From: Flavivirga abyssicola | Lineage (GTDB): Bacteria > Bacteroidota > Bacteroidia > Flavobacteriales > Flavobacteriaceae | Length of the DNA: 64,000 nucleotides | Reading direction: 5' to 3' | Assembly: GCF_030540775.2 (NCBI RefSeq) | Contig: NZ_CP141266.1 | Span: 4,327,001-4,391,000, forward strand | Shown here: positions 22,915 through 47,151 of the stretch, in pieces | Numbering within the stretch: the stretch's first letter is position 1 | How the letters are laid out: every line of letters begins with the position of its first letter | Notes under the pieces: model-generated | Told to the model about the DNA's origin: nothing | The model's input: only the letters and a program-made list of their open reading frames with translations | The model's database searches: none | Made by a program: the position numbers and the translations under genes

Positions 22915-24258
22915 TCAAAAAAACAGCGATAAAATTGACGCACAAGCAAAGCCTGTAATTGCCAATAATGTGGTCATGGCTGTCCAACTTTGAAACGTTT
23001 GCTTTTCAGATAATCCCAGATATTTACCAACCAACCAAAATCCACTATCATTTACATGAGACATAATACTTGCTCCGGAAGCTACAGCTATTACTAGTAA
23101 TGCTTTTTGTGGATCTGAAACAGATTCCATTAAAAGCGGTGCAGTGAGACCAGCTGCGGTAATCATTGCTACGGTTGCAGACCCTTGTAAAATACGAATT
23201 ACAACGGCAGATAAAAATGCAAATAATAATATACTAACGCCTTCATTTGCAAAATAATTAGCTAGCATTTCTCCTGCGCCTGTGTTTACCAGCATTTGTT
23301 TGAACACCCCACCTGCTCCTGTTATTAAAATTATCATACCTGCTGGTGCCATGGACTTTGTACTGATATCTAACAATTGATCTTTTGTAAAGCCTCTTCG
23401 AATTCCTAATAGATACCAGGCAATCAAATTGGCTATAATTAATGCCGAAAATGGGTGTCCAATCATCCCCATCCATTCCAGTATTTTTTTAGGTATTATA
23501 TGTTCTCCTACTAACGGACTGTTTAGTATAGTGTTTACAACTATTAGTAAAATAGGAATAGCGATTATACTAATAATGATACCAACTGAAGGAAGATTTT
23601 CTAGTTCTTTGGTCTCAGTAGTTATTTCAATCTGGGATACTTGAACTCTTTTTGAAATAAATTTTCCAAAAATAGGACCGCATAGAATTGCTGTTGGAAT
23701 TCCTGCAATTAATCCAAAAAATATGACCCATCCCAAATCTGCTTTTAAAATATCTGCAACAGCTACTGGACCTGGTGTAGGTGGAATAAATGTATGTGTT
23801 ATAGCTAATCCTGCCAGTAACGGAATTCCATAAAGTAATATAGGTTTACCTGTCTTTTTTTGAAGGGCGTATACCATAGGTACTAAAATAATAAAGGCTA
23901 CTTCAAAAAATACTGGAATAGCTACAATAAATCCAGCGAGCATTAATGCCCAGGGAGATCGTTCTACTCCAAACTTAGCCAATAATGACGCGGCTAATGA
24001 TTCTGCACCTCCGGAATGTTCCAGAATAGCACCAAATATACCTCCCAAACCAACAACTAGTGCAACAAAACCCAATGTGTTTCCCATACCTTCTTGCATG
24101 GTTTTTATAATTGTTAAGGGTTCCATTCCTGATAAAACTCCCACGAAAATACTTGCAATTAGTAAGGATAAAAATGCCTGTATTTTAAAACGTAAAATCA
24201 GTACTATTAATAATACAACTCCTAATATTACTGATGTTAAAAGAGAAAAATCTATCAT
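22915..24258 (-). CDS. gntP: GntP family gluconate:H+ symporter
   Basis: A 447-residue polytopic permease with about 12 hydrophobic segments. Family marks are GLGGIFGAILEHSGGAESLA, AHTFIPPTPGPVAVADIL-like (here THTFIPPTPGPVAV), ITGAGGVFKQMLVNTG, the QGSATVAMITAAG motif and MSHVNDSGFWLVGKY near the C-terminus. It would import gluconate or a related aldonate. ATG 24258 begins 2 bp after the stop of the upstream gluconokinase/6PGDH gene. Translational coupling and shared substrate support the gluconate assignment. Confidence 0.92.
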   Translation of the reverse strand: MIDFSLLTSVILGVVLLIVLILRFKIQAFLSLLIASIFVGVLSGMEPLTIIKTMQEGMGNTLGFVALVVGLGGIFGAILEHSGGAESLAASLLAKFGVERSPWALMLAGFIVAIPVFFEVAFIILVPMVYALQKKTGKPILLYGIPLLAGLAITHTFIPPTPGPVAVADILKADLGWVIFFGLIAGIPTAILCGPIFGKFISKRVQVSQIEITTETKELENLPSVGIIISIIAIPILLIVVNTILNSPLVGEHIIPKKILEWMGMIGHPFSALIIANLIAWYLLGIRRGFTKDQLLDISTKSMAPAGMIILITGAGGVFKQMLVNTGAGEMLANYFANEGVSILLFAFLSAVVIRILQGSATVAMITAAGLTAPLLMESVSDPQKALLVIAVASGASIMSHVNDSGFWLVGKYLGLSEKQTFQSWTAMTTLLAITGFACASILSLFF

Positions 24259-24260
24259 AA

Positions 24261-26138
24261 TTAATACCAATTAGTGTGAAAAAATTGACCTTTAGGTGCA
24301 TCTATTTTTTGATACGTATGTGCTCCAAAATAATCGCGTTGTGCTTGAATTAAGTTTGCTGGTAAGTTTTCGGTGGTGATTGCTATCCAATGATTATAAG
24401 CAGACCAGAATGTATCAAATGGTACTCTATGTGATAAACTGTAGGTTATACTTTTTGTTATATGGTTTTCTGCTGAAATCAATACCTCTAATAAATCTGT
24501 TGTATCCAAATAACTTTCATAATCTTTAAATACATCCACTGATGTTTCCATGAATTCAGAGCGGATGATGCAACCGTTGGTCCAGATACGAGCAATTTCT
24601 GATATGTTTAACTGCCAATTGAATGTTTTAGAAGCCAATCGAATCAGTTCAAAACCTTGATGGTGATTTATAATTCTTGCAAATCGATATGCCTTTTCTA
24701 AACTGTTAACATCAAGTACATCTGTAGTTTTTAAATCACTCTTAATAAACTTAGATAGCTGTTTTCTTTTTTCTTTAAAAGAAGATATATAACGGGCAAA
24801 AACAGCAGAAGACATCATGGTATTTACTGTACCCAAATCGAAACCAGCTTTTGTAGACCAGGAACCAGTCCCCTTATTACCGGCCTTGTCTAAAATAGTA
24901 TCCAGCACATACTTTCCATTTTCCTTAGTTTTTAGAATATTAATTGTAATTTCTAATAAGTAACTAGATAAATCTGTCGTATTCCACTGTGATAAAATAG
25001 TAGCAATTTCTTCATTATTATTGGTTATGGATAATAGGGCATAAATTTCTGCTAACAATTGCATCTCGGCATATTCAATGCCGTTGTGAACCATTTTAAC
25101 AAAATGGCCAGCGCCTTGCGGCCCTACATAAGTGCAACAGGCGTTACCCTTTTTATCTTTAGCTGCAATGGCTTCTAAAACTGGTTTTATAATCTGGTAA
25201 CTTTCTTTAGCACCTCCAGGCATAATAGAAGGTCCCTTTCTTGCTCCTTCTTCTCCTCCCGAAACGCCACAACCTATAAAATGAAGCTGCTTACTTATTA
25301 AATATTCATATCTTTTATTCGTATCTAGGTAATGTGAATTACCACCATCAATTAAAATATCACCTTCAGATAAAATAGGTATTATTGCTTCGATAACTGC
25401 ATCAATGGCTTTACCGGCCTTAATCATGATGAGTATTTTTCTGGGACGTTCTAAAGAATTGACGAATGCCTCTAATTCCGTAAAGCCCTTAATTTGCATA
25501 ACCTCATCAGCTTTGTTCAAAAAGTCTGAAACCATATGTTCTTCTCCCGGAGCTATTCTATTATATACAGATAGTGCGTACCCCTTTTCTGCAATGTTTA
25601 AGCTTAAACTACTGCCCATAACACCCAGTCCTATAACTCCAAAAAACGATTGATTTAGATTTTCCAATTTTGAAATGATATTTTTTGTAATTTTTTCTGG
25701 CGATTCGGAAATGTCAATATGAATTCCATATTCAGGCATTTCTAAATCCTTAAATTGAGAAGTCAACAAATCTGCATTCATAAAATGTCCACCTCTTTTT
25801 TCAATTCTGCCTTTAATTAAATCATAACTACCTGATAAATGAACCCATATAATATCATTATATCTTGAAGACAGCACGGCTCTATACTTTTCCTTTAATG
25901 CAGAGCAAGCTAATATAGCTCCATTTTCTTCAGACCATGTTTCAATATTACTTGCTAATGAAAGTAACCAAGGGTATCTATCATCATCATTTAAAGACAT
26001 ACCCTTTGTCATTTTATCAATGTTAGATTTTGGATGAAAATCGTCACCATCAAAAAAAGGAATCCCAATTTTTTGAGATAATTTTTTTCCTACTGTAGTT
26101 TTACCACACCCACTGACACCTAATAGCACAATAATCAT
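24261..26138 (-). CDS. Gluconokinase-6-phosphogluconate dehydrogenase fusion
   Basis: A 625-residue two-domain enzyme. Residues 1-160 are a gluconokinase of the GntK type: Walker A GVSGCGKTTVGK, FFDGDDFHPKSNIDKM and ACSALKEKYR. Residues 166-625 are a complete 6-phosphogluconate dehydrogenase: the GVIGLGVMG Rossmann loop, ILIDGGNSHY, GVSGGEEGARKGPSIMPGG and HFVKMVHNGIEYAEMQ. One chain would turn gluconate into 6-phosphogluconate and then ribulose-5-phosphate with NAD(P)H. The two parts join without a long linker. ATG 26138 is preferred; GTG 26144 overlaps the GH3 stop by one base. Its neighbours are a gluconate permease and GH3 enzymes. Confidence 0.92.
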   Translation of the reverse strand: MIIVLLGVSGCGKTTVGKKLSQKIGIPFFDGDDFHPKSNIDKMTKGMSLNDDDRYPWLLSLASNIETWSEENGAILACSALKEKYRAVLSSRYNDIIWVHLSGSYDLIKGRIEKRGGHFMNADLLTSQFKDLEMPEYGIHIDISESPEKITKNIISKLENLNQSFFGVIGLGVMGSSLSLNIAEKGYALSVYNRIAPGEEHMVSDFLNKADEVMQIKGFTELEAFVNSLERPRKILIMIKAGKAIDAVIEAIIPILSEGDILIDGGNSHYLDTNKRYEYLISKQLHFIGCGVSGGEEGARKGPSIMPGGAKESYQIIKPVLEAIAAKDKKGNACCTYVGPQGAGHFVKMVHNGIEYAEMQLLAEIYALLSITNNNEEIATILSQWNTTDLSSYLLEITINILKTKENGKYVLDTILDKAGNKGTGSWSTKAGFDLGTVNTMMSSAVFARYISSFKEKRKQLSKFIKSDLKTTDVLDVNSLEKAYRFARIINHHQGFELIRLASKTFNWQLNISEIARIWTNGCIIRSEFMETSVDVFKDYESYLDTTDLLEVLISAENHITKSITYSLSHRVPFDTFWSAYNHWIAITTENLPANLIQAQRDYFGAHTYQKIDAPKGQFFHTNWY

Positions 26139-26143
26139 ACACA

Positions 26144-28387
26144 CTACTTTTTAAGATAGAAGGTATGTTTTAAACCAGATTCAGCATCAGCCCCTACCCA
26201 AATATTAAAATCACCTTCTTCTGCATCACGAATTTGTTTATGATTTGTAAATTCTAACTGTGCTGCCGACACTTTAAAAATTACTTCTTTAGTTTCACCC
26301 GCATTTAAACTTACATGTTCGAACCCTTTTAATTCTCTAACAGGTCTCGTAATACTACCCACTATATCTTGCGTATAAAACTGGACAATCTCTTTACCTT
26401 TCTTCTCTCCAACATTTGTAATAGAAACTTTGACGAGTAATTCTTCGTTGAAACCAATTGTATCCTTAGATATTTGTAAATTATCATATTGAAACTCTGT
26501 ATACCCCAAGCCAAAGCCAAAAGGAAAGTGTGGTGTATACCCAATATCTAAATAATGAGAATCATTTCCTAAGGAGCTCTGCCAAGCACCAATAGGAATA
26601 TCATACATAGCCACATAGTCTTTTTTATTGGCTGGCCTTCCCGTGTTTTTATGATTATAAAAATATGGTAATTGACCTGCAACTTTTGGCCAAGACACGG
26701 GTAGTCTTCCTTCTGGTTCTCTAAATCCAAAAATAATCTCTTGCAATGCAGCACCTCCCATGGTACCAGGATGCCAAGACATTAATACTGCATCAACGTT
26801 ATCTATAATATTCGTAATGGTAATAGGCCGACCTGCCATAATCACCAAAACAATAGGCTTGCCTGTTTTGGATAATTCTTTTATTAAATCTTCTTGTACA
26901 CCTGGTAAGTCTAGAGAAGCTCTACTATGAGCCTCACCTGATAGAATAGCTTCTTCTCCTGCAACAAACACAATAACATCAGAATCTTTTACACCATTAA
27001 TAGCTTTTTTAAATTGTGCTTTAGATCTGTCTCTGCTATGGGTTAATGCTGTTACATACGTAACATTAACTTTTGCGTCTTTAAAGGCTTTTAAAGGTGT
27101 TATAGTATGTTCTTTTTCACCATCGAATGTCCAGGTTCCCATTTGATCTAATGGTGCATTAGCCAAAGGCCCTATTAATGCTACTTTTGTATCACCAGAC
27201 AAAGGCAATATATTCTTATTTTTCAGTAATACCGAACTTTTAATTGCTGCTTCTTTGGCTTCTTCTAAGTGTCCTTTTTTATAAAAACTTGCTTCATTAT
27301 TTTTATCTCGATATGGTGTTTCAAAAAGCCCTAGTCTCAATTTTATTCTTAATATGTTTTTTACAAACGCATTTAACTGAGATTCTGTAACTTTTCCTTC
27401 TTTTATCAAATCTTTTAAGTGATACTCATAAGCTCTACTAGTCATTTCCATATCCATACCTGCATTTGCTGCCAATTCGCCTGCTTGCTTTTCATCTTTT
27501 GCATAACCGTGAGCGATCATTTCTATAACAGAATCCCAATCACTAACAACAAATCCATCAAAATTTAATTCATCTCTTAAAACGTTTTTTAATAGAAATT
27601 CATTCCCTGTCGCCGGGATACCATTTATCTCATTAAACGATGTCATAACTGTTGCTGCTCCTGCATCTAAAGCTGATTGAAAAGGTGGTAAATACACATT
27701 ACGCAGCAATGGTTCGGGAATTATTGTGGTATTGTAATCTCTCCCTCCTATAACTGCTCCGTAACCAATGTAATGCTTAGCACATGCAGCTATGCTTGTT
27801 GGGTTGTTTAAAGAATCACCTTGAAACCCTTCAACATAGGCTTTTCCATAAATTGAAGCTAGATAAGGGTCTTCTCCCGGAGATTCTGCTATTCTTCCCC
27901 AACGGCTATCTCTGGCAATATCCAACATTGGTGCAAACGTCCAACGAATTCCAACTGAACTGGCTTCTATAGCTGCTATTCGAGAGGATGATTTTACTAT
28001 ATTCGTATCCCATGAAGACGCTAAACCAATAGGTATTGGAAATATCGTTTTAAATCCATGAACGACATCTCTCCCAAAAATCAAGGGGATTTTATTCGGA
28101 CTTTCCTCCACTGCTATTTTTTGGAGTTCGTCTACAAATTCAACATTCATGACATTTAACAATGCTCCGACTTTACCTTGTCTTACATCTTCTTTTAGTT
28201 CGTCTGATAGTGTTTTTGACCTACTGGACGTTCCTCTTAAATTGGTTTGTCCTATTTTATCATCTATAGACATGGTTGCCAATACACTGTCTATAAATTT
28301 CTCTTCAACATTATTCTTTGTTGTAGAAACTTTATTTTCTGAACAACCAATTAAGGTGAGTGCTATAATTACTAAGTAATATTTCAT
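26144..28387 (-). CDS. GH3 beta-glucosidase-like lipoprotein (BglX type)
   Basis: A 747-residue protein. The lipoprotein signal MKYYLVIIALTLIGC (lipobox cysteine at 15) predicts membrane anchoring. The GH3 N-terminal barrel follows with IPLIFGRDVVHGFKTIFP, RWGRIAESPGEDPYL, KHYIGYG and the nucleophile segment FVVSDWDSV. The (alpha/beta)6 C-terminal domain and a fibronectin III-like end (FGLGYTEFQYD, about 640-745) complete the BglX/exo-beta-glucosidase architecture. It should remove terminal beta-linked glucose or xylose from oligosaccharides made by other PUL enzymes. It lies in the esterase-GH3-GH3-gluconate operon. Confidence 0.9.
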   Translation of the reverse strand: MKYYLVIIALTLIGCSENKVSTTKNNVEEKFIDSVLATMSIDDKIGQTNLRGTSSRSKTLSDELKEDVRQGKVGALLNVMNVEFVDELQKIAVEESPNKIPLIFGRDVVHGFKTIFPIPIGLASSWDTNIVKSSSRIAAIEASSVGIRWTFAPMLDIARDSRWGRIAESPGEDPYLASIYGKAYVEGFQGDSLNNPTSIAACAKHYIGYGAVIGGRDYNTTIIPEPLLRNVYLPPFQSALDAGAATVMTSFNEINGIPATGNEFLLKNVLRDELNFDGFVVSDWDSVIEMIAHGYAKDEKQAGELAANAGMDMEMTSRAYEYHLKDLIKEGKVTESQLNAFVKNILRIKLRLGLFETPYRDKNNEASFYKKGHLEEAKEAAIKSSVLLKNKNILPLSGDTKVALIGPLANAPLDQMGTWTFDGEKEHTITPLKAFKDAKVNVTYVTALTHSRDRSKAQFKKAINGVKDSDVIVFVAGEEAILSGEAHSRASLDLPGVQEDLIKELSKTGKPIVLVIMAGRPITITNIIDNVDAVLMSWHPGTMGGAALQEIIFGFREPEGRLPVSWPKVAGQLPYFYNHKNTGRPANKKDYVAMYDIPIGAWQSSLGNDSHYLDIGYTPHFPFGFGLGYTEFQYDNLQISKDTIGFNEELLVKVSITNVGEKKGKEIVQFYTQDIVGSITRPVRELKGFEHVSLNAGETKEVIFKVSAAQLEFTNHKQIRDAEEGDFNIWVGADAESGLKHTFYLKK

Positions 28388-28459: not shown

Positions 28460-30646
28460 TTATTCAACTTCAAATTTTATTGTCTTGGAAATATTATTAG
28501 ATGCATTTCCTATATATGCTATATAATTCCCTTTTTCTAAATTCCAATCTGAAATATTCTCATCATAAAATGCCAAATCATTTACATAAATGGATATCTC
28601 GACAGACTGCGAGGTACTCTTTTTTAATACCATTTTCTTAAATCCTTTTAGTTCTTTAAGGGCTCTTTTTACTTTAGATTTTGGCTTTCCAACATAAACC
28701 TGAATGACTTCTGCTCCATCTGTATTTCCTGTATTTGAAACCGCTCCGGAGATAACTACTTGCTCTCCTTTTGAATATGTTTTTTTGTTTAATTTAAAAT
28801 CGGATAACTCGAATGAGGTATAAGACATCCCTTCACCAAAGGCAAATAGAGGTTTAATCTTTTTTGTATCATGCCAACGATATCCTACTAAAATATCTTC
28901 TTTGTAATATTGATTAGTACCGTCTCCTGGGTAAGACAGTTCTCCAAAATGATGGGCTGCATTATCTTTTAATTTTGTAGGAAACGAGAATGGTAGTTTC
29001 CCTGAAGGATTAACATCTCCACTAATAACATCTGCTAACGCATCTCCTGCCATACTTCCCAGATACCATCCTTGTATTAGCCCATTAATTTTATCTAACC
29101 AGGACATTTCTACAGCATTCCCTGTTAATAGCACTACACCAACATTTTTATTAACTGCCGTAATTTCATTTAGTAATTCATCTTGTCCAAAAGGTAATTC
29201 AAATTGTTTTCTATCTTCCCCTTCACAATCTTGAAGGTGGCTTTTATTTAAACCGCCAACGAACAACACTATATCTGCTTTTTTGGCAACTTTAATAGCT
29301 TCAATTTTTAAGGAATCTGCATCATACGGCGAAGGCAAAACTTCGTCATATATTGAGGGCCCTGAAGCAAACCCCATGGCATGAACAATTTTTGCGTTTT
29401 TATAACGTGCTTTTAATCCTTCAAGAGGGGATATTTCAAATTGTGGTTTTAATTCTGAAGAACCACCACCCGCAGTCATTGATCGTGTTGCATTTTCTCC
29501 AATAACAGCTATTGTTAGTCCTTTTTCATCTTCAATCGGGAAAAAATTATCTTTATTTTTAAGTAGCACAATACCTTCTGTAGCTACATTTCTAGCTACA
29601 TTATGGTGTTCTACATTGTTCATTCTTCCAAAAGGCCTATTGTCACTCATGTTTGTTCTTAACATCAACCTTAGAATGCGTCTCACTTTATTGTCAACTA
29701 CAGATTCTTCTATTTCTCCCTTTTTAATTGCTTTCAAGAAAGGTGTTGCCAAATAATAGTTGCTATAGTGATTTAAAGTGGTTGTTCCCAAACCATCTGT
29801 TCCTGTACCCATTTCCATATCTAAACCGTACAAAGCAGCTTCTTTTGTGGAATGTGCCGAACTCCAATCGCTTATTACAACACCATCAAACTCCCAATCT
29901 GTTTTTAGTATTTTATGAAGTGTTGGGTTATGTGTAGTGTACTTACCTCTAAATTTATTGTAAGCCCCCATAATTGCCCAAGTGTTGCCTTCTTTTACTG
30001 CTGCTTTAAAGGCTGGTAAATAAATTTCGTATAAGGCTCTATCGCTTACTTCAACATTGATTTTATCTCGCAAATGCTCCTGATTATTTAAAACAAAATG
30101 TTTTACACATGCGGCAACGCCATTTTCTTGAACTCCTTTTATATAAGGCACTACAAGCTTTGAAGCTAAATACGGATCTTCGCCCATATACTCAAAGTTT
30201 CTACCATTGTATGGGGTTCTGTATATATTAACTCCTGGACCTAAAAGCACATCTTTTTTTCTGTATCGTGCTTCCTCTCCAATACTGAAACCATATTCTT
30301 TGGCAAGCTTTGGATTAAAAGTCGATGCTAAACAGGTTAGTGCTGGAAAGGCTGTAATGGAATCATTAGTCCATTCTGCATACCCCCAGTTATCCCAATT
30401 TATTTCTGCTCTTACACCATGAGGCCCATCAGACATCCATACCTCGGGAATTCCAAGACGTGCTACTCCCGGTGTACTAAATTTAGATTGTGCATGACAC
30501 ATCGCTACTTTTTCTTCCAAAGTCAATAAGGAAATTATACTATCAATCTTTTTTTCTATCATTTGATTCTTCTGTGCTTTTACTGTACTAGTCATAAATA
30601 ATATAAAAACTAAAAAAAGAGGTTTTCTATAAAATTGCTTTATCAT
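28460..30646 (-). CDS. GH3 beta-glucosidase-like exported enzyme
   Basis: A 728-residue protein starting at ATG 30646 (MIKQFYRKPLFLVFILF), with a signal peptide ending VKAQ. A longer frame to 30694 would only add a basic stretch inside the previous gene. It contains ARLGIPEVWMSDGPHGVR, a GVNIYRTPYNGRNFEYMGEDPYL barrel segment, CVKHFVLNNQE and the nucleophile region GVVISDWSS. A C-terminal FnIII-like domain ends near FEVE. This is a different GH3 subtype from the neighbouring gene (closer to plant-type/BglB enzymes). Its ATG overlaps the esterase stop in an ATGA, indicating translational coupling. Confidence 0.9.
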   Translation of the reverse strand: MIKQFYRKPLFLVFILFMTSTVKAQKNQMIEKKIDSIISLLTLEEKVAMCHAQSKFSTPGVARLGIPEVWMSDGPHGVRAEINWDNWGYAEWTNDSITAFPALTCLASTFNPKLAKEYGFSIGEEARYRKKDVLLGPGVNIYRTPYNGRNFEYMGEDPYLASKLVVPYIKGVQENGVAACVKHFVLNNQEHLRDKINVEVSDRALYEIYLPAFKAAVKEGNTWAIMGAYNKFRGKYTTHNPTLHKILKTDWEFDGVVISDWSSAHSTKEAALYGLDMEMGTGTDGLGTTTLNHYSNYYLATPFLKAIKKGEIEESVVDNKVRRILRLMLRTNMSDNRPFGRMNNVEHHNVARNVATEGIVLLKNKDNFFPIEDEKGLTIAVIGENATRSMTAGGGSSELKPQFEISPLEGLKARYKNAKIVHAMGFASGPSIYDEVLPSPYDADSLKIEAIKVAKKADIVLFVGGLNKSHLQDCEGEDRKQFELPFGQDELLNEITAVNKNVGVVLLTGNAVEMSWLDKINGLIQGWYLGSMAGDALADVISGDVNPSGKLPFSFPTKLKDNAAHHFGELSYPGDGTNQYYKEDILVGYRWHDTKKIKPLFAFGEGMSYTSFELSDFKLNKKTYSKGEQVVISGAVSNTGNTDGAEVIQVYVGKPKSKVKRALKELKGFKKMVLKKSTSQSVEISIYVNDLAFYDENISDWNLEKGNYIAYIGNASNNISKTIKFEVE

Positions 30647-31542
30647 AATTTTTTTTGAGATGAATTCATTTTTCTTTTTTTGGAAAAAAGCCAAGGAATC
30701 AGTTCTGTTTCATTGAACGCTTTTTTGAATGATTCTCCGTGACCTGTATTTCTGTACTCTGTATACTTTACATCTGCATTACTATTAGACAATAGCTTAA
30801 ACATTGTCCTTGATCCTGTTACTGGGTTCCACTTATCGATATCCCCATGAAATATCCAGAATGAGATATGCTTTATTTTTTCCAGTTGATCTGGATCAGA
30901 ATAGCCAGCCATAGGTATGGCTCCTGCAAATAAATGTGGTTTTCTGGCTGTGAATTCCCAAGTTCCAAAACCACCCATTGACAGCCCTATGATATAAACT
31001 CTATCTGTATCAATATTTTTATCTTTTATTGTTTGCTCTATTAATTCTAATGCAGCTGCTCCAGATTCGGAAGGCTCAGGACTCATTTTATAAGTACCAT
31101 CTGTTCCTAAACCTTTAAAAGGTGTTTCTGGTGAATTCCCAATCCATTTTGCCCATTCTTCATTTTCTGTTTTATCTGAACACTGCGGAATTAAAATATG
31201 ACAGGGGTATTGAGATTGCATTGTGGTTTCTAATAATGAATTTGAATTCGTAATTATCCCTGCTTCATGGTATATCTTTGAATCATTATCAACTCCCCGG
31301 TCACCCCTTCCGTGTAAAAAAACCACTAAAGGAATTTTTGTTTTGGCCTCATTTTTGGGGCTAAACAAACGATAAGGCATTTTTAATCCATTTGAAGACG
31401 AAAAAACATACTTTGTCAATAAAGAATCAATGGTCAATTCTTCCATGTTATAAGCCTTCTCCTTTAAGGTGACTTTTTGTGCCTTTGCACTTATACAGCT
31501 TAGAAAAACAAAAAAAATAAATGGTATAGGTAATTTTAACAT
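30643..31542 (-). CDS. Exported alpha/beta-hydrolase esterase
   Basis: A 299-residue protein from ATG 31542 (MLKLPIPFIFFVFLSCISAKAQ) with a clear signal peptide. The domain resembles PHB-depolymerase/dienelactone-hydrolase-like carbohydrate esterases and predicted peptidases. It shows an oxyanion region (PLVVFLHGRGDRG), a nucleophile elbow GLSMGGFG, an acid HGDIDKWNPV and a late histidine RNTGHGES. It probably removes acyl or aryl esters from the polysaccharide or its oligomers. It is the first gene of the esterase-GH3-GH3-gntK/gnd-gntP operon, behind the 29-bp motif at 31649-31677. Confidence 0.8.
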   Translation of the reverse strand: MLKLPIPFIFFVFLSCISAKAQKVTLKEKAYNMEELTIDSLLTKYVFSSSNGLKMPYRLFSPKNEAKTKIPLVVFLHGRGDRGVDNDSKIYHEAGIITNSNSLLETTMQSQYPCHILIPQCSDKTENEEWAKWIGNSPETPFKGLGTDGTYKMSPEPSESGAAALELIEQTIKDKNIDTDRVYIIGLSMGGFGTWEFTARKPHLFAGAIPMAGYSDPDQLEKIKHISFWIFHGDIDKWNPVTGSRTMFKLLSNSNADVKYTEYRNTGHGESFKKAFNETELIPWLFSKKRKMNSSQKKL

Positions 31543-31648
31543 CTTAACTGTTTCTAAAGTGTTGAAATGCCCCTTATTTAAATCAGGGGCAGTCAACACA
31601 AAAACTAAACTAATTTGATACTTATATTTACTTAAGCTCTCTATTATA

Positions 31649-31677
31649 AAGACCCATAGGAAAGAAAAACGGGTAGC
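31649..31677 (-). promoter_or_regulatory. Candidate ECF-sigma promoter for the esterase-GH3 operon
   Basis: On the minus strand this reads GCTACCCG, 11 nt, TATGGGTCTT. The same two blocks with the same 11-nt spacing occur at 40600-40628 before the anti-sigma gene. A -35-like CTACCCG and a -10-like GGTCTT fit ECF promoter layout. It lies 107 bp before the esterase ATG. Confidence 0.6.
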
Positions 31678-31918
31678 ATTAAAATGACAATTATAATTTC
31701 AGAAAATGAATAAAAGATTTTCAGAACAACTACTGGCTAAATATTAAGCCATATAACATCTTTAAATATTTGATAATAAACAAAATAAGCTCAAAATCTT
31801 TATAACTCTTAATGTATCCCGTGAAGTTTAAATACTAAAAGAAGTAAAATGAGGCGTGTTATAAAAAAGCAACATTCTTTTTGATTTTTGTGTTCTGCGT
31901 TTGTTTTTTCATAAAACG
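31678..31918. other. Non-coding gap between VCBS gene and operon promoter
   Basis: With 31543-31677 this forms a gap of about 376 bp. Apart from the 29-bp promoter-like motif I see only AT-rich sequence with no open frame of note and no strong hairpin. Confidence 0.4.
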
Positions 31919-35200: not shown

Positions 35201-35219
35201 ATTATAAATATAGGAAAAA

Positions 35220-35246
35220 GAGGCTTTGAAATATATTCAAAGCCTC
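35220..35246 (-). terminator. Rho-independent terminator after susD
   Basis: A perfect 11-bp inverted repeat, gaggctttgaa (35220-35230) and ttcaaagcctc (35236-35246), with a 5-nt loop and five T on the minus strand beyond the stem. It separates susD from the VCBS gene, whose ATG is only 20 bp further. Confidence 0.88.
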
Positions 35247-35289
35247 ATCAAAAACTAAACAAACTCAGGTTTTATTAATTTTCATCAAA

Positions 35290-36840
35290 TTAATATCCGG
35301 TATTTTGAGGTAACAAATTAGAATTAACAGATATTTCTGTATTTGGTACGGGCATTAAGTCGCGACCTTGAGGAAGCGTTAAACCATATGAATCTTGAAT
35401 AAACATAGCGGCTTCACCTGATCTTCTAATTACTGCCCATAAAGAGAATTCTCCTCCTAATTCATGTCTGTATTCCTGCAATATATTAGCTATAGAAACG
35501 GTTTTAGCAGGCGCTGTTCCTCCCCAAGCTCTATCTCTTACTCTATCAAAAGCTGTTTGTGCTTTAGCTGTTTGGCCTTCTCTTAAAGCAGATTCTGCTA
35601 AACTTAAAAGCACTTCGCCATAGCGTATCCAGATATGCCCTTGACCACCAAAAAGTTGTTCTCTACCCCATCCATCAATATTTGGATCTCTCCAGCTCTT
35701 AACGCCCCAATAACCTGATCTGCCTGCTGGGTCTCCACCTGTCCATGGTTCTGCTACAGTTCCAGCTGTATTAATATTTACACCATCATACATGTTTATA
35801 TCTATTAATGGATCTGGATGCTCCTCTCCAGGGGCTATTACCGTAGCTTGTCTTCTTAAATCGCCCGGTTCGAAAGAATCGTACAATTCTTTTGTGGGGA
35901 TTCCAGCAAAACCTCCACCACCTGTAATATCGGTAGGCATAGCAAATAGCTGTAAAATATTTACTTCATCATTTCTATTCCAACCTAAATCACCGTTAGC
36001 AGCCCATTGCAATTCAAATAAAGATTCTACTCCATTAGGATTGTCTAACGCATGAATATCGAAGTAATCAGGTTCTAATGAAGTGACTCCTCCTGCTTCT
36101 ATAGCTTCAAAAGCCGTAATAGCCTCAGAATACTGTTTTAACCACATATGAGCATTTCCTAATACGGCATATGCAGTTCCTTTTGTGACTCTTCCTTTAT
36201 CGGTATCATGTGACCAAGGAAGCCTGTTAACAGCATCATTCATATCGGTTACTATTTGCTGAAACACCATATCTTGAGGGTCTCTTCCTTTAAATGGATC
36301 ATCGGCTATGCTCAACATTATAGGAACATCTCCATAAACTGCAGCAAGGTATTGGTAAGAGATGGCTCTAATAACTAGTACTTCTCCAATTAAACGGTTA
36401 CCTAAATCTGCACTTATACTTCCTCCATCTATACCCGATTGAAGACCTACTAATGCATTATTGGCTCTACCAATTGCCCTGTAATTATTAGGCCAAATTT
36501 TTACAGGAACTTCGCCATCTGGATTAACATCAAAATTGAAGTAATCTGAATCAGCACGTCGTGCTTGTGGCTGCCAATCTAAAGCAGGATAATTTGCGTA
36601 GGCAAAAATACCTTTTACATTATATTCATTAGGCAACCCAGGATCTCCTTGAGAGTCATTTTGAAGCCCATCATACACACCGGTTACTGCTGCTATTGCA
36701 GTTGCATCAGATCCATAAACAAATGCTTCCGTTAAATCTTTAGTATTTGGATCTTGTAAGAAACTATCTGAACAACCATATAATAACACTAATAAAAGCG
36801 CTCCTATGGTTACAATTCCTTTAATATTTCTAAATTTCAT
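35290..36840 (-). CDS. SusD/RagB-family glycan-binding lipoprotein
   Basis: A 516-residue surface lipoprotein. The signal MKFRNIKGIVTIGALLLVLLYGC ends in a lipobox cysteine, followed by SDSFLQDPNTKDLTEAFVY, typical of SusD N-termini. TPR-like helices (AYAVLGNAHMWLKQYSEAITAFE, about 220-250) and the C-terminal RHELGGEFSLWAVIRR block complete the family pattern. It binds glycan and forms the lid of the SusC transporter. ATG 36840 is used; TTG 36846 is an alternative. It follows susC by 11 bp and ends at a strong terminator. Confidence 0.95.
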   Translation of the reverse strand: MKFRNIKGIVTIGALLLVLLYGCSDSFLQDPNTKDLTEAFVYGSDATAIAAVTGVYDGLQNDSQGDPGLPNEYNVKGIFAYANYPALDWQPQARRADSDYFNFDVNPDGEVPVKIWPNNYRAIGRANNALVGLQSGIDGGSISADLGNRLIGEVLVIRAISYQYLAAVYGDVPIMLSIADDPFKGRDPQDMVFQQIVTDMNDAVNRLPWSHDTDKGRVTKGTAYAVLGNAHMWLKQYSEAITAFEAIEAGGVTSLEPDYFDIHALDNPNGVESLFELQWAANGDLGWNRNDEVNILQLFAMPTDITGGGGFAGIPTKELYDSFEPGDLRRQATVIAPGEEHPDPLIDINMYDGVNINTAGTVAEPWTGGDPAGRSGYWGVKSWRDPNIDGWGREQLFGGQGHIWIRYGEVLLSLAESALREGQTAKAQTAFDRVRDRAWGGTAPAKTVSIANILQEYRHELGGEFSLWAVIRRSGEAAMFIQDSYGLTLPQGRDLMPVPNTEISVNSNLLPQNTGY

Positions 36841-36851
36841 AATCAATTTTT

Positions 36852-39800
36852 TTAAAATTTTAAATTAAATCCTAAAGTTACAGTACTTGAAACTGGATAT
36901 GCCCCAGCATCGATACCTCTTGTAGTGACATTGCTATTTCCATTGATGTCAGCATTTTGGCCTATCTCTGGATCAGATCCTGAATAATTAGTTATTGTAA
37001 ATACATTTTGAATACTCGTATATATTCTAAACGTATCTAATCTTAATTTTTCAACAATTTTAGATGGTAATGTATAGCCAATATTTAAGTTTCTTAATCT
37101 GAGATAAGAACCATCTTCAACAAAATAACTAGAAGCTCTATTATTTTGTATATCACCATCGTCTATAAGCGCTCTAGCGTATGCATTTGTTGAGCCCTCG
37201 CCACTCCATATATTATTAAAATATTCTGTACTAACATTTGAATACGACGCACTATTACCATAACCTGAAGCACTTTCCAGTTCACGCTTTACAAGGTTGA
37301 ATATCTCACTACCGTAAGACCCATAAAAATTAAGCCCCAAATCAAAATTCTTATAGGAAAAGTTCAAGTTTAAACTTCCAAAGAAATCTGGAACCGGACT
37401 CCCAATGACTGTTCTATCTTGATCTGTTATCTCTCCATCGTTGTTTAAATCTACAAATCTACGATCACCGGGAGATGTTCTAGTTGATTGATACGTACCA
37501 TCTGGTGAAGCTGTATTCAAAGCATCGATTTCTGCTTGGTTTTGAAAAAGACCATCAGCCACAAAACCATAAAAAGACCCTGCTTCTCCACCTAATTGAG
37601 ATTTTGTAATATCATACCAAAATCCTCCTGTAAAAAAGTCATTTAAAAATTGGTTAGAAAATGTAACTTCACCATTAGGAACATTTAGCTCAGTTATTTC
37701 ATTATCTATGAAAGAAATATTTCCATTGATATCAAAGTTAAAGTCTCCATCATTTTTTCGGTATCCTACTAAAAGTTCAAATCCTTTATTTACTATTGTT
37801 CCGCCATTTACAGGTACAATTGGAAAACCAGATTGTGAAGGACTATTAATAAAAAGTAAAAAATCCTCTGATGTTCTATTAAAATAGTCTGCTGTAAAGT
37901 ATAATCTATTATTTAGAAGCTCACCTTCTAAACCAATATTTGTTTGCACTTGTGCTTCCCATGTTAAGTTTGGATTAGATGCGCCAACAGGAGCTAAACC
38001 TGCCGCATTGTTTCCTGCAAAACTATAACTAGAATCATTATTGGGAGTACCATTATTAAATGTTGTGCTAAATCGGTATGGCTGAATACCTTGAAAGTTT
38101 CCTGTTTCTCCCCAACTAGCTCTTAACTTTAAAATATCAAAAGCACTGTCTTGCATGAAATTCTCTTCGTCAATATTCCATCCAACTGCAAATGAAGGGA
38201 AGACTCCCCATAAATTATCTGCACCAAAGGTATCACCAACACCGTCTCTTCTTATAGTTCCGGTAAAATAATATTTACTGTCAAAACTATAATTAAACCT
38301 GGCAAAAGTACTTGCCAAAGTTTGCCTAGTAGAGAACCCTGCTGCATCTGTTATCTCTGCTGCTTGAGCTATATCACGAATCCTATTATCCAGAAAACCG
38401 CTTCCTTCTACTTCGCTAAACTTTCTAAATGTTCTTTGTACTGAAATACCTCCTAAAACATCTATACTATGTTTTTCAGCAAATGTTTTCTTGTACTGTA
38501 GTATATATTCTGCTAACCATTGGTTAGATGTATCTTGCGTGTACTTATATGTCGCACGGTTTCTAAGGTCTACATTACCAGAACTACGATAATATTCTGG
38601 GCTAAAATTCCAACCTGCAAAATTATCACTTCGAGCACCTAAATTTAACCTTGTAGATAATCCTTTGTAAATATCCCATTCGGCACTCATATTAGCCAAC
38701 ACAGTATTTGACACATTATCTTGGTCATTTTCCAAAGCTCTAGCTACCCAGTTTCTACCATCACGAAACGCTTCTCCTGTTACATCAGGGAATGCCCCAA
38801 AATTACCATTGGCATCTACAGGCAAGTTAGTAGGGTTAGTTCCTCCTATTTGATTAGCTTCTCCAGTTGGTGCCAAATGAGGAACTGAAGCATATAAGTT
38901 TAATAAAGCACCTCGACCAGTTCCAAGAGGTTGAAAGTTTTGTGAAGAAATGTATTTGGCATTAGCTTTAAAACGTAGCTTATCTGTTATATCAAAAGAA
39001 CCATTTAACCCCAAATCGTAACGCTTGTATTCTGATCCAATAAGTGTTCCTTCATCATCAAAAATACCAGCTGTAACTGCATATCTAGAATTTTCACCCC
39101 CACCTCTAACACTTAAAGTAGTACTTTTTATAGTTCCTTTACTAAATACTTCATCTTGCCAGTTGATGGTTCTCAGATCACCTGGATTACTCCACCCTGA
39201 ATACGGTATTGCGTTTCCAGCAACATCCACATCAGAACTTCCACTAAGCCCTAAGGCTAATGAAGAAAATTGATTTGCATCAAGTACATCGATAGACTTT
39301 GGTTTAGAACGAAAGGCCAAAAAAGAGCTTAATTCTACCGCAACTTTTCCTTTAGTTCCCTGTTTAGTTTGAATTATAACAACTCCATTACTTGCTCGCA
39401 CACCATATAATGCTGTTGCCGATGCATCTTTAAGTACTGAAATGGATTCAATAGTACTTGGATTTACAAATGATATATCATTAGTAGGAAAACCATCTAC
39501 CACATAAAGAGGTGTAGTACTTCCAAATGAACCTACTCCTCGTATATTTACAGTTGCTGAAGCTCCTGGAGCTCCAGAGTTTGAAGTAATTTGTACACCA
39601 GCAGTTTTACCTTGAAGTGCCTGATCTACAGTAGCTGTTGGGAACGAGGTAAGCTCCTCAGAACTAATTACGGATACTGCACCTGTTAGATCCTTTTTAG
39701 TCGCTGTACCATAGGCAACAACAACGATCTCATTTAGAGATTGAGTGTCTTCTACCAAGGTTATATTTACTGTAGTCCGGCCATTAACTGCTACTTCTTG

Positions 39801-40190
39801 AGAAACAAAGCCTATATAACTTACTACTAATATATCATTATCAGCTACATTTGAGATTGAATATTTACCATCAAAGTCTGTTTGACTACCATTTGACGTT
39901 CCTTTTACAATAATATTTGCTCCCGGTAAGGCTGCTCCATTTGCATCTGTTATAATTCCTGAAACTGATTTCTGAATATCAGTATTAACGTTTTTGAGTC
40001 GATCTGTTTCATCAAAAACCTCTTCAATTTTCATGTTATTCGAATCCAGATTAATATTTGTATTGTTTGAATACGCATTATCCTGAACCGAAAAAAATGA
40101 AATTACTAATAAAAGTAAATTTACCTTCATCTTTAATTTAATTTTAATTGAATTGAGCCACGATAGCCCAAAACTCTTATAGTTTTTCAT
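36852..40190 (-). CDS. SusC/RagA-family TonB-dependent glycan transporter with reduced STN region
   Basis: A 1112-residue outer-membrane receptor. After a basic N-terminal tail and signal (MKVNLLLLVISFFS, about 21-40) there is only a short STN-like stub (NINLDSNNMKIEEVFDE). Next come the carboxypeptidase-D-like domain (SVSGIITDANGAALPGANI, about 72-150), the TonB box/plug region (IVVVAYGTATKKDLTGAVS, NIRGVGSFG) and a 22-stranded barrel ending in an aromatic-type C-terminus (TLGFNLKF). It imports oligosaccharides with SusD. A full STN domain normally contacts a FecR anti-sigma; here both are shortened. ATG 40190 is used, though ATG 40130 would also leave a signal peptide. Confidence 0.93.
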   Translation of the reverse strand: MKNYKSFGLSWLNSIKIKLKMKVNLLLLVISFFSVQDNAYSNNTNINLDSNNMKIEEVFDETDRLKNVNTDIQKSVSGIITDANGAALPGANIIVKGTSNGSQTDFDGKYSISNVADNDILVVSYIGFVSQEVAVNGRTTVNITLVEDTQSLNEIVVVAYGTATKKDLTGAVSVISSEELTSFPTATVDQALQGKTAGVQITSNSGAPGASATVNIRGVGSFGSTTPLYVVDGFPTNDISFVNPSTIESISVLKDASATALYGVRASNGVVIIQTKQGTKGKVAVELSSFLAFRSKPKSIDVLDANQFSSLALGLSGSSDVDVAGNAIPYSGWSNPGDLRTINWQDEVFSKGTIKSTTLSVRGGGENSRYAVTAGIFDDEGTLIGSEYKRYDLGLNGSFDITDKLRFKANAKYISSQNFQPLGTGRGALLNLYASVPHLAPTGEANQIGGTNPTNLPVDANGNFGAFPDVTGEAFRDGRNWVARALENDQDNVSNTVLANMSAEWDIYKGLSTRLNLGARSDNFAGWNFSPEYYRSSGNVDLRNRATYKYTQDTSNQWLAEYILQYKKTFAEKHSIDVLGGISVQRTFRKFSEVEGSGFLDNRIRDIAQAAEITDAAGFSTRQTLASTFARFNYSFDSKYYFTGTIRRDGVGDTFGADNLWGVFPSFAVGWNIDEENFMQDSAFDILKLRASWGETGNFQGIQPYRFSTTFNNGTPNNDSSYSFAGNNAAGLAPVGASNPNLTWEAQVQTNIGLEGELLNNRLYFTADYFNRTSEDFLLFINSPSQSGFPIVPVNGGTIVNKGFELLVGYRKNDGDFNFDINGNISFIDNEITELNVPNGEVTFSNQFLNDFFTGGFWYDITKSQLGGEAGSFYGFVADGLFQNQAEIDALNTASPDGTYQSTRTSPGDRRFVDLNNDGEITDQDRTVIGSPVPDFFGSLNLNFSYKNFDLGLNFYGSYGSEIFNLVKRELESASGYGNSASYSNVSTEYFNNIWSGEGSTNAYARALIDDGDIQNNRASSYFVEDGSYLRLRNLNIGYTLPSKIVEKLRLDTFRIYTSIQNVFTITNYSGSDPEIGQNADINGNSNVTTRGIDAGAYPVSSTVTLGFNLKF

Positions 40191-40244
40191 ATCTTTGAAA
40201 TGTTATTAATAATTAGCTAATCATTTAGTTGATTATTTTATCAT

Positions 40245-40268
40245 CGAGAAGTATTCCTGTACTTCTCG
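40245..40268. other. Hairpin in the anti-sigma/susC spacer
   Basis: A perfect 9-bp inverted repeat (cgagaagta / tacttctcg) with a 6-nt loop, about 90 bp downstream of the anti-sigma stop and 55 bp upstream of susC. Its T-run lies on the plus-strand side, so on the minus strand it is a weak terminator at best. It could be an attenuating or processing structure that separates regulator from receptor expression. Confidence 0.6.
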
Positions 40269-40357
40269 ATTTTTTACTTTATAAAATCGGAGTGTAGTTT
40301 TTTATTTCATTTAGGCATATTTTGGTTTTAAGTTAATTTAGTAAGTATATCGTTTTT

Positions 40358-40570: not shown

Positions 40571-40599
40571 TAATGACGCTATAAAGACTATTTATAATT

Positions 40600-40628
40600 A
40601 AGACCCATAAAAACAGAAAACGGGTAGC
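40600..40628 (-). promoter_or_regulatory. Candidate ECF-sigma promoter before the anti-sigma gene
   Basis: Minus strand: GCTACCCG, 11 nt, TATGGGTCTT, sharing both blocks and spacing with 31649-31677. It ends 30 bp before the anti-sigma ATG. Layout fits autoregulation by the sigma factor encoded just upstream. Confidence 0.6.
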
Positions 40629-40687
40629 GTGAAATAAAAAATCCGCAAAAATGAACTTAAAAAAATAAAAATTACAAAAAAGAAGTG

Positions 40688-41286: not shown

Positions 41287-42408
41287 TTAATTACTACCTA
41301 TTACAACAGATATTAGAGGCTTGTTTTCTGTAGCATCATTGTAAAGCAATCCGAAATTGTCACTTTTATAATTCCAATTAGCATACCCAATGCCTGTTTC
41401 TTCAAAAAGTTGAATCATATCCCGATACCAAATAAGACTCTCTTCTTTTGGGGCATTAGAAATAACACCGAATTCTCCACAGTAAAGCGGTAAGCCCAAA
41501 CTCTTGGCTTTCTGTATAGGTTTTTGCCACATCCCTAGTAAGACCTCTTTATTAAATTTGGCACCTACCCACTCCTCGACTTCTTTTTTAATATCTTCTG
41601 GAAGTGTTTCAAACTCAGCTTCACTTAAAATGACACCTGGATAATGAACGGGACCTTTATAATCTCTTAAGCTTGTCCATCTTGCTGCATAATGACTCAA
41701 AAGAAAAGGCTTGTAGAAATGAAAGCTTAAAAGGATGTTTTTATCGTTAGCTGGAACGCGTAATGCATCAAAAGTTTCTACACCTTGCCATCTATTAGAC
41801 CCAACAATTATCGTGCGTTCTTTTTCTAATTCGCGAATAGCAGTTATAGCTCTTGCAAGCAGACTGTTCCAAGATTCATGATTGTCTGCAACAGCTTCAT
41901 TCATTAGTTCGTAGGCTACTAAACTATTTGGAAATTTCTTTAATGATTTTGAAAGGTCTCTCCACAGGTCAAAAAACTTCTCTTGTTCTGTCGGATCTGT
42001 CCATAAAGGTTTTTCTTTTGCGTTAAAATGATGAGATCTTAAAATATGTAGATCAACAATAACTTTAAGGTTATTTTCGATACACCAGGTAATACCGTTA
42101 TCCAATAGCTGAAATGCATCTTCATGTCGATTCCCGTTTTCATCCCACATTTGTTCTTCATCAATGGGTAACCGAATATGATCAAACCCCATACTGGCAA
42201 TTTTTTTAACATCGGTTATTGTAAAGAATTGTTCACGTTGTATTCCTCTTCGGTCACTTTGCGACAACCAATGTGCTACATTTGTTCCTCTTTTAACTTC
42301 AAACTGTTCAAGACCGACTATTTTTTTTGAACACCCTGTAATTACAATTGCACCTAACAATCCAAGGAAAACAAACCTTAATAATATTATTTTAACTCTC
42401 AATTGCAT
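41287..42408 (-). CDS. GH5-like endoglucanase/glucanase lipoprotein
   Basis: A 373-residue protein with lipoprotein signal (VFLGLLGAIVITGC). It adopts the GH5/cellulase barrel pattern: KRGTNVAHWLSQ, FDHIRLPIDEEQMWDE, KVIVDLHILR, the acid/base AYELMNEAVA (Glu), SFHFYKPFLLSHYA and the nucleophile region LYCGEFGVIS (Glu). It probably cuts internal beta-linkages of a glucan, making oligosaccharides for SusCD uptake and GH3 trimming. It lies between the hybrid regulator and the sigma factor in the same direction. Confidence 0.88.
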   Translation of the reverse strand: MQLRVKIILLRFVFLGLLGAIVITGCSKKIVGLEQFEVKRGTNVAHWLSQSDRRGIQREQFFTITDVKKIASMGFDHIRLPIDEEQMWDENGNRHEDAFQLLDNGITWCIENNLKVIVDLHILRSHHFNAKEKPLWTDPTEQEKFFDLWRDLSKSLKKFPNSLVAYELMNEAVADNHESWNSLLARAITAIRELEKERTIIVGSNRWQGVETFDALRVPANDKNILLSFHFYKPFLLSHYAARWTSLRDYKGPVHYPGVILSEAEFETLPEDIKKEVEEWVGAKFNKEVLLGMWQKPIQKAKSLGLPLYCGEFGVISNAPKEESLIWYRDMIQLFEETGIGYANWNYKSDNFGLLYNDATENKPLISVVIGSN

Positions 42409-42420: not shown

Positions 42421-42516
42421 TCAAATATTTACAAACACCATAACCAACAAAAACATTAAAACTCCAATCAATAAGATTTCGAACACTAGCTTTTTGTTAA
42501 TTTTTTTCTGACTCAT
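42421..42516 (-). CDS. 31-residue membrane peptide
   Basis: ATG 42516 opens a 31-codon frame (MSQKKINKKLVFEI, then a hydrophobic helix LLIGVLMFLLVMVFV) ending 12 bp before the GH5 ATG. A basic head and single transmembrane helix make it plausible as a small membrane peptide or leader of the GH5 gene, but it is too short for firm support. Confidence 0.35.
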   Translation of the reverse strand: MSQKKINKKLVFEILLIGVLMFLLVMVFVNI

Positions 42517-42769
42517 ACCTTATTAATATTAATCCAAACTTAACATTTCATTAAGATTCTATTCATCACATAAAATGCATTAAATGAAAGATTTGTAGCT
42601 TTTGATGCGTATTAAAAGCTTATGCAACATTTGTAATATATCATGCAACATTTGTGCGTATACACTATCCTAGTAGTAGTGAATTTATATGTTTACAAAT
42701 CAATAGAATCCAAGAAGTGAATAGGAAAAGGGATTCTAATAAGTGCTTAAATGACTAAGTCTTTTTAAT
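42517..42769. other. Non-coding stretch upstream of GH5
   Basis: This belongs to a gap of about 580 bp between the PUL regulator and GH5. It holds AT-rich sequence with a near-direct repeat (gcaacatttgta / gcaacatttgtg at about 42624-42656), no further gene and no clear terminator. Confidence 0.4.
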
Positions 42770-42987: not shown

Positions 42988-45900
42988 CTATTTTATCTCT
43001 GTTGGTAAAACTCCGAAATGGGCTTTAAAACATTTTGAAAAATACGACGGGGATGCAAACCCAACACTGTAACATGTTTCGCTTATATTAGAATTGCCTT
43101 TTTCAAGAATTAGTTTTGATCTTTCAAGTCTTATCCTTCTTACAAACTCATTAACAGTTTGACCTGTTAACGCTTTAACTTTTCTGTAAAGTTGGCTTCT
43201 GCTTAAGTTTAAATGGTCTGCTAGTTCCTCCACACCTAAATTCGAATCGCTTATATTATCATTAATATAGCTTAGCAACTTTTGTATGAATTCTTTATCG
43301 ATTGAACTCGTATTAACATTGTCTTCTGCCCCACTAATCGCACTAAAGTATTTATCAAAAATAAGTTGTCTGCTTTTAATTAACTGGGTTAAACGAAGCT
43401 TAAGAAGCTTAAGATCAAAAGGTTTAACCATATAGGCATCTGCACCATTTTCTATACCTTCAATTCTATTTTCTATAGTTGCTTTTGCAGTAAGCATTAA
43501 TAAAGGGATATGACTTGTTGAAGCATGTGTTTTAATAGTTTTACAAAATTCAAAGCCACTCATTTCTGGCATAATAACATCAGTGATTATAACATCTGGA
43601 AAGGATTCTCTGGCAATTTTAACGCCCGATTTACCATTACTTGCCAATAATACTTTATATTGATCACCTAATTCTAATTTCAAGTAATCTCTCAATTCTA
43701 CATTATCTTCAACAATAAGTACAGTATTTGTCTTTTGAACTTGAATACTTTCATCTGATTGTTCACTAATCTCAACTGTTGGTACTGTTAAGAAATCTTC
43801 TTTCTTCTCGTGCAATGCCTTTTTGTTTAATACAATCTCATTTTCATAAAAATGATCATTGCCAGATGCCAATAATATCTTAAACGTTGTGCCTTCATTA
43901 ATTTTGCTTTTAACTTCAATGACACCTTTATGCAACTTTACAAAATTTTGAACCACTTCCAATCCTATTCCTGTGCCACCGAAATAAGTTTTATTCTGGC
44001 CTTCTACTTGATAAAAACGTTCAAATATTTTTGATACTTGATCTTCTTTCAATCCAGGGCCTGTATCAGAAATTATTATTCCAACTGTTTTTACAGGTTT
44101 TTCCTCATCAATTAGCGGTAAAATATGTAACTGGTCTGTTGATAGAAGCTCTACTGTAATAGCGCCGCCATCTGGGGTAATTTTAATAGCATTGGACAAT
44201 AAATTAAAAATTATTTTTTCAAGCATTTTTGTGTCTGCCCAAACCGTTACAAAGGGCATATCTGCATCTACACTTAATAGAATGTTTTTTCTAAAGGCTT
44301 CTTCTTGAAAATAATCAACAATATTTTCTGAGAATTCTATTAGGTTTATCTTTTCTGCCCTCACATTCATTTTTTTTAACTCGAGCTTCCTTAAATCCAT
44401 TAACTCATTAATAAGCCTATAAAGCCTATCTGTATTCTTATAAATAATTGCGTGCTTATTTTTAACTTTTTGTGGCAAATTAAGATCAGCGTTATTAATA
44501 ATATCCTTGAGAGGATTTAAAATTAGTGTAAGAGGGGTTCTAAATTCATGTGAAATATTTGTAAAAAACTGAATCTTCTTTTTGTTTAATTCATCATTTT
44601 GAACTTGCTGTAAACGTTCATTTCTGATTAATTCTTTTTCCTTAATTCTACTTTGCGTTAACTGATTTAGCATATAAATACCTAAAAGAAATAATAACAA
44701 GTAAGAAAAAATCGCCCAATTTGTTTGCCACCAAGGCGGTAGTACTGTAATTTTTAATTCTAGTGGATTTTCATTCCAGACACCATCATTATTAGCTGCT
44801 TTTAACTTAAACGTATAATTACCAGCATCTAAATTAGTATAGGTAGCATTTCTTTTTTGCCCAACATAATTCCAAGTTGCTTCATACCCTTCCAGATAAT
44901 ACGCATAATTATTCTTTTCTGGTCGGGTATAATTAATTCCAGAATATTCAATGGTAAATACAGACTGTTTATGTGTTAAGCTAATACTATCTGTTTCCGA
45001 AATAACCTTATTAAGCGGCCCTTCTTTATCTTGTGGAATAACCTTTTCATTAAACAGTTTGAAATTTGTAAGGTATAAGGATGGGGGGCTATTATTAATT
45101 TTGATTTGCTTTGGGTTAAAATAATCTACACCCTTAAAGTTTCCAAAATATAGTAATCCATCTGATCCTTTTAATACGGAACCAAAATTAAAATCATTTG
45201 ATAATAAGCCATCATTAATAGTGTAGTTAGTAAAACTAAAATCCTTTAAATCAATTTTTGTTAGCCCAGAATTTCCACTTATCCATAAATTATTATTACC
45301 ATCTTCTGTTATTGCCGAAACATTTTCTTCATTAAAACCTGTAAACTTATTATACCAAATAAATTCATCTTTCACTTTATCATATTTACAAACTCCTGCT
45401 CCTCTTGTACCAATCCATATGTTGTTATTGGAATCTTCATAAATTGAAAGAATATGGTTAGCATCAGCAGAATTCTTATATTCCTGGGTCATTTTATTAC
45501 TTAATACTGTAACATTTAATGTCCCATTTTTTTGATTTTCGACTTTAAACAGACCATTTGTTGTTCCCAACCAGATAACATCTTCTGAATCGACCAAAAC
45601 CTTTCTAATATCCTTTTCGGAAAAACCGTTTTTTATAAAACCATTTGAGCTATGTTTTTTTATTTTTTTAGTAATCGGATCATACGAATGGAGTCCTTCA
45701 GCAAATGTGCCAATCCAAATGATACCATTGGAGTCTTCAGACAAACTTATAATGGTATTAGATCGTAGTGCCCCTGCCGTGTTTTCTATACTATAATTAG
45801 TAAATTTTTTTTCTCCTTTCTTTAAAATAAAAACACCACTGTCCCAACTGCCTACCCAAATATTTTCATGAGAATCAACAAATAATGTTTTAATGTAATC

Positions 45901-47139: not shown

Positions 47140-47151
47140 AGTAGGAATCAC

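Follow-up and report, generated by a model that had tools for sequence, protein, structure and literature searches.

A proposed HTCS-to-ECF sigma relay with a truncated FecR in a PUL of Flavivirga abyssicola

The two copies of a 29-bp motif in a PUL of Flavivirga abyssicola are very likely promoters, and our sequence comparisons point to a FecI-type ECF sigma factor of 171 aa, encoded next to one of them, as the protein that reads both. The predicted -35 core is ACCC and the predicted -10 core is GTC, separated by a 17-bp spacer, with CTACCC and GGGTCTT as sigma-specific extensions. The predicted regulon has two promoters and is confined to this one PUL, where it comprises the mini-FecR-SusC-SusD genes and the esterase-GH3-GH3-GntK/Gnd-GntP genes. 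We also find it rather likely that these elements form a relay, in which a hybrid two-component system regulator (HTCS) acts on the sigma factor and the sigma factor on the two ECF promoters.

The motif, GCTACCCG-N11-TATGGGTCTT, had been described in the initial annotation, and the coordinates, minus strand, blocks and spacing given there for its two exact copies proved correct to the letter (Table 1). In the window, the whole 64-kb stretch of DNA that was analysed, up to three mismatches gave these two matches and no others, against 0.01 expected from dinucleotide shuffles, none of which contained two matches. The genome scans used pattern matching rather than a weight matrix. With up to two mismatches, the whole genome (4,684,200 bases, or 4.68 Mb) holds the same two copies, and the next-best match has three mismatches.

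Table 1. Features of the locus, in order of their position in the window.
Feature	Coordinates	Strand	Remarks
GntP permease	22915..24270	-	
Gluconokinase-like/6-phosphogluconate dehydrogenase fusion frame	24261..26144	-	
GH3 glycosidase	26144..28387	-	
GH3 glycosidase	28460..30694	-	
Esterase (alpha/beta hydrolase)	30643..31542	-	Leads the operon of promoter 2
Conserved 5'-UTR hairpin of the esterase operon	31561..31597	-	GTTGA..CCCCT..AGGGG..TCAAC; between promoter 2 and esterase start
Predicted ECF promoter 2	31649..31677	-	-35 CTACCC, -10 GGGTCTT; esterase-GH3-GH3-GntK/Gnd-GntP operon
FG-GAP/ASPIC-UnbV protein, 1093 aa	31919..35200	-	Conserved in locus
SusD-like lipoprotein	35290..36846	-	
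SusC-like TonB-dependent transporter	36852..40190	-	Without STN signalling domain
Candidate DonS-like cis-antisense RNA	40202..40277	+	Mini-FecR-SusC gap; predicted
Mini-FecR, 70 aa	40358..40570	-	Cytoplasmic anti/pro-sigma domain alone; no TM or periplasmic part
Predicted ECF promoter 1	40600..40628	-	Mini-FecR-SusC-SusD transcription unit
FecI-type ECF sigma factor, 171 aa	40688..41203	-	Pfam Sigma70_r2/r4_2; alignment; tree
GH5 glycosidase	41287..42408	-	83 bp upstream of sigma
Small hydrophobic ORF, 31 aa (MSQKKINKKLVFEILLIGVLMFLLVMVFVNI)	42421..42516	-	First ORF after direct repeat; 8/8 loci
TAAGTTTG	42535..42542	-	Fits the -7 box TAnnTTTG of flavobacterial sigma-A; almost no variation in 8 loci
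Direct repeat ACAAATGTTGCAT-N8-ACAAATGTTGCAT, 21-bp period	42622..42655	-	Candidate HTCS operator
HTCS (Reg_prop/Y_Y_Y/HisKA/HATPase/RR/AraC HTH)	42988..47151	-	Kept in all loci

The motif is conserved along with the sigma factor. Seven further Flavivirga genomes encode sigma orthologues (75-90% identical), and the core CTACCC-N15-GGGTCWT has 15 exact matches over 12 congeneric genomes. Rather than being scattered over many sites unrelated to the sigma regulon, all 15 lie at two orthologous positions in the PUL, one 3' of the sigma stop codon and ahead of the small FecR gene, the other ahead of the esterase-GH3 operon. The eight genomes with these matches all carry the sigma gene; the four congeneric genomes without it have no match, and neither does the reversed-pattern control in any of the 12. 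A sixteenth expected site, on the anti-sigma side in G010, is degenerate (ACTACCCG...GGGGATCC, that is, ACTACCC...GGGGATCC). Three more diverged loci, with a sigma factor 72-77% identical, all keep the sigma-side site; L221 and L222 also keep the esterase-side site and so have both, and in L219 the second site would fall beyond the stretch covered. Motif and sigma orthologue are thus together in 11/11 loci, with one site degenerate and one beyond the covered stretch, which supports, on sequence evidence, the tie between hydrolase operon and sigma factor drawn in the initial annotation. Alignment of the sites shows three invariant elements, CTACCC, a TTT tract and GGGTC; the flanks and the remaining spacer positions vary.

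In the congeners the sigma gene and the hydrolase operon and PUL genes always occur together, so that co-occurrence alone cannot assign the motif to the sigma factor as opposed to another regulator of the PUL. The sigma factor is singled out as the reader mostly because of a promoter signature seen across the family. Where another FecI-type sigma gene stands next to a gene for full-length FecR, the gap holds the strict pattern ACCC-N17-GTC in only 8 of 27 cases, against an expectation of 0.06 from shuffles. The spacing profile of ACCC and GTC in these paralogous gaps peaks sharply at 17, a spacing also found in 7/8 mini-FecR gaps. These results support the ECF layout that had been suggested earlier; the boxes then assigned, CTACCCG and GGTCTT, come close, but the cores themselves are ACCC and GTC. 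ECF promoters usually have GTC or CGT in their -10 element; in Flavobacterium psychrophilum, the mapped -10 box of an ECF motif has a conserved CGT (PMC9723704). A scan of the region with the sigma-70 consensus, which is the wrong promoter type, gave no excess (45 matches, 53.8 expected). In two full-FecR loci of other genera we observed a near-identical promoter, ACCC-N15-GGGTC, in the sigma-FecR gap (L103 at 4663 and L102 at 5496).

The motif might instead be an operator, in which ACCC...GGGT, read as a hyphenated inverted repeat, would let a dimeric regulator such as the HTCS bind and control both operons directly. The two halves are indeed symmetric and invariant across intact orthologous sites, and the HTCS is encoded within the same PUL. 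We regard this as unlikely. The paralogous gaps keep the ACCC-N17-GTC spacing and often lose the symmetric GGG (they read CAGTC, TTGTC or TCGTC), so that the feature they have in common is a -35/-10 pair and not a pair of operator half-sites. Moreover, a 21-bp direct repeat of the classical kind, with a different sequence and at another place, is already the candidate site for the HTCS, and an inverted repeat with a 19-bp centre spacing does not fit the direct-repeat geometry of HTCS operators. It is also improbable that the motif is an ECF promoter read additionally or mainly by other FecI-type sigma factors, in a redundant regulon. The genome encodes more than 40 sigma region-4 proteins and the ACCC-N17-GTC frame is common to other FecI-FecR pairs; however, the extended motif is limited to this PUL and is absent from congeners that lack the sigma factor yet have many other ECF sigmas. 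Chance, or the recent duplication of a segment with one of the upstream regions, might also have produced two almost identical sites separated by some 9 kb. Both are refuted by genus-wide conservation of the blocks at orthologous positions with diverged flanks: spacer and flanks differ, and the -35, the spacer T-tract and the -10 alone survive species divergence.

If the motif copies are promoters of the FecI-type sigma factor, one may ask how this factor is itself controlled. It has FecI-type regions 2 and 4 and lacks the hydrophobic C-terminal tail found in most of the relatives with a full FecR. Pfam searches of the partner SusC found an STN domain in none of 8 loci, and in the three additional loci this protein has no room for one; STN is present in 4/5 outgroup SusC proteins, from relatives with full FecR. 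Of the parts that define FecI-FecR-FecA/SusC surface signalling, the sigma factor is therefore present, and the TM and periplasmic parts of FecR and the STN domain are absent. The initial annotation had mentioned neither the missing STN, nor the fragmentary nature of the anti-sigma protein, nor the HTCS with a likely operator before the sigma operon.

The anti-sigma gene does lie directly 3' of the second motif copy, as had been noted, but it encodes only a 70-aa fragment of FecR. This mini-FecR is homologous to the FecR N terminus: its profile finds matches in full-length FecR proteins (best E 8e-19), and the alignment agrees. It has no Pfam match and no TM or periplasmic FecR/FecR_C domains; its full-length relatives match PF04773 and PF16344. 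The AlphaFold (AF2) model is helical with a mean pLDDT of 81, and Foldseek matched it weakly to the PupR cytoplasmic domain (5cam/5cos, E ~5-6, TMt 0.6). Searching PDB sequences with the mini-FecR profile gave chance matches only. Among 299 genomes of the family, profile matches outside the genus lie mostly in frames of ~370-420 aa, the exceptions being one 325-aa frame and two weak, stop-interrupted ones. In the sigma tree the members with mini-FecR fall together on a single branch (support 100/98) among relatives with full FecR; provided that the root is placed outside this clade, FecR would have been shortened once, as a derived event.

This shortening could be plain decay, with mini-FecR a non-functional remnant and the sigma factor constitutive or dispensable. 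FecR has indeed become shorter by four fifths, SusC has lost its STN, and mini-FecR evolves faster than the sigma factor. We nevertheless judge decay very unlikely. The frame keeps a length of 70-74 aa in 11/11 loci, and its identity falls to 38% across them, yet residues remain that are invariant with full-length FecR. Most pairwise dN/dS values fall between 0.12 and 0.4 and the most extreme is 0.56; values so far below 1 indicate that the gene is maintained. The sigma factor and both promoters are, furthermore, strongly conserved.

A candidate for the input to the sigma factor lies just upstream. The HTCS has a complete set of domains (periplasmic propeller sensor, HK, RR and AraC HTH), is 73-93% identical between loci, and in 11/11 of them immediately precedes GH5 and sigma. 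The interval between HTCS and GH5 contains an almost invariant block that holds the direct repeat, followed by TAAGTTTG. The consensus that the latter matches is that of the flavobacterial sigma-A -7 box (PMC9723704), and in the direct repeats predicted as HTCS operators of Bacteroides the units are on average 21 bp apart (PMC3878776). By its geometry and position, our direct repeat is a candidate HTCS operator. It is present in 11/11 loci, with two core substitutions in one locus and one in another, and at up to two mismatches it is single-copy in each of the eight carrier genomes. On the 3' side of the perfect pair, ACAAATCTTTCAT (42584-42596, minus strand) matches the repeat unit at 11/13 positions; it is nearly invariant in eight loci and is possibly a third half-site. 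The GH5 gene is probably co-transcribed with the sigma gene. Near the comparison loci with full FecR we found no HTCS in 6/7, and in L103 two weak partial matches only.

With FecR and SusC stripped of the parts needed to pass a signal through the envelope, the sigma factor probably receives its input at the level of transcription. In the proposed relay, the HTCS would sense an oligosaccharide and activate the operon of the small ORF, GH5 and sigma. The sigma factor would then fire promoter 1, for mini-FecR-SusC-SusD, and promoter 2, for esterase-GH3-GH3-GntK/Gnd-GntP; transcription from promoter 1 may perhaps continue past a terminator-like hairpin into the 1093-aa FG-GAP gene. Mini-FecR, as a product of promoter 1, would bind the sigma factor in the cytosol, either as a brake (anti-sigma, negative feedback) or as a built-in cofactor (pro-sigma, positive feedback). 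Both activities have precedents: the E. coli fragments FecR1-59 to 1-68 give constitutive FecI activity without a signal, FoxR1-93 and FiuR1-91 act as pro-sigma factors, and a fragment of FpvR inhibits its sigma factors (PMC9249621). We give about even chances to a broader reading, in which the signalling was dismantled in concert and rewired: the HTCS would drive the ECF sigma factor as an intermediate amplifier, and a "pre-cleaved" FecR, made from the sigma factor's own promoter, would serve as its soluble pro- or anti-sigma cofactor.

Several other features of the locus stood out. The terminator-like hairpin in the gap between SusD and the FG-GAP gene (GAGGCTTTGA...TCAAAGCCTC-TTTTT, 35220-35246, minus strand) is found in 8/8 loci. 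Most congeners have, between the FG-GAP gene and promoter 2, a ~410-aa gene of CxxCH type (cytochrome c-like, ACAACHLE), at 7703-8956 in L094, 11617-12849 in L096 and equivalent places elsewhere; the window and G008 lack it. The order esterase-GH3-GH3-GntK/Gnd-GntP 3' of the first motif copy is as the initial annotation had it. The GTG listed as the esterase start (31599) coincides with the edge of the conserved 5'-UTR hairpin, in which 4/14 pairs show pair-keeping changes on both sides, and the esterase likely starts at the ATG at 31540-31542. The presence of GntP, gluconokinase-like and 6-phosphogluconate dehydrogenase genes (22915-26144) in a PUL with GH3, GH5 and esterase suggests that gluconate or an aldonic acid is the end product released and taken up. 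The predicted antisense RNA has a -7 box, TATCTTTG, at 40190-40197 (plus strand), overlapping the SusC start codon, and a terminator made of a 12-bp hairpin (40243-40270) and a T-run. Box and hairpin are kept in 11/11 loci, the box reading TACCTTTG in L219, and a hairpin with a T-run is found in most full-FecR relatives as well. An Rfam search of 30000-43500 gave no matches.

The component parts of this system are already known; it is their arrangement that appears to be new. Like the Fec system of E. coli and the ECF sigma/FecR/STN-SusC PULs of Bacteroidetes, the locus has a FecI-type sigma gene beside a FecR-related gene and SusC/SusD, a predicted promoter between sigma and FecR, and the cytoplasmic domain of FecR. 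It differs from them in that FecR lacks the TM and periplasmic domains, SusC the STN and the sigma factor its hydrophobic C-terminal tail, and in having a second putative ECF promoter that would drive a hydrolase operon. In size and content the 70-aa protein matches the experimental N-terminal fragments of FecR (FecR1-59 to 1-68, FoxR1-93, FiuR1-91, FpvR; PMC9249621), but here the fragment is a stable gene, apparently expressed from its sigma factor's promoter, rather than a protease product or a laboratory truncation. As in HTCS PULs with 21-bp direct-repeat operators (PMC3878776), the HTCS adjoins the PUL and a repeat precedes an operon with a sigma-A -7 box. In contrast with those PULs, the one operator that can be recognised stands before the GH5-sigma operon rather than before SusCD, which suggests a two-step relay. 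A two-component system working through an ECF sigma factor is also known from PorX/PorY-SigP of Porphyromonas gingivalis (PMC4800418); that system controls type IX secretion, whereas the link proposed here would be transcriptional and within one PUL. The DonS-type cis-antisense RNAs at susC of Bacteroides (PMC7366714) likewise combine an antisense promoter, placed where susC begins, with a terminator between the anti-sigma gene and susC; ours is predicted from sequence and belongs to the Flavobacteriaceae. In the open-access full-text literature we found neither a naturally truncated FecR in a PUL nor a relay from an HTCS to an ECF sigma factor, and this speaks weakly for novelty.

These results may have consequences beyond this locus. 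The promoters of PUL-associated ECF sigma factors of Bacteroidota are hard to predict (PMC3878776), and ACCC-N17-GTC between sigma and FecR is a testable rule for the FecI-type sigma factors of flavobacteria and a means of tracing regulon members that lie far away. In addition, evolution has performed an experiment at this locus by retaining just the FecR fragment that laboratory work found enough to switch sigma factors on or off; the locus can therefore show whether this fragment is an activator or a brake. Finally, the control of PULs by HTCS and by ECF sigma factors is usually described as a pair of alternatives. The locus suggests that the two can be wired in series.
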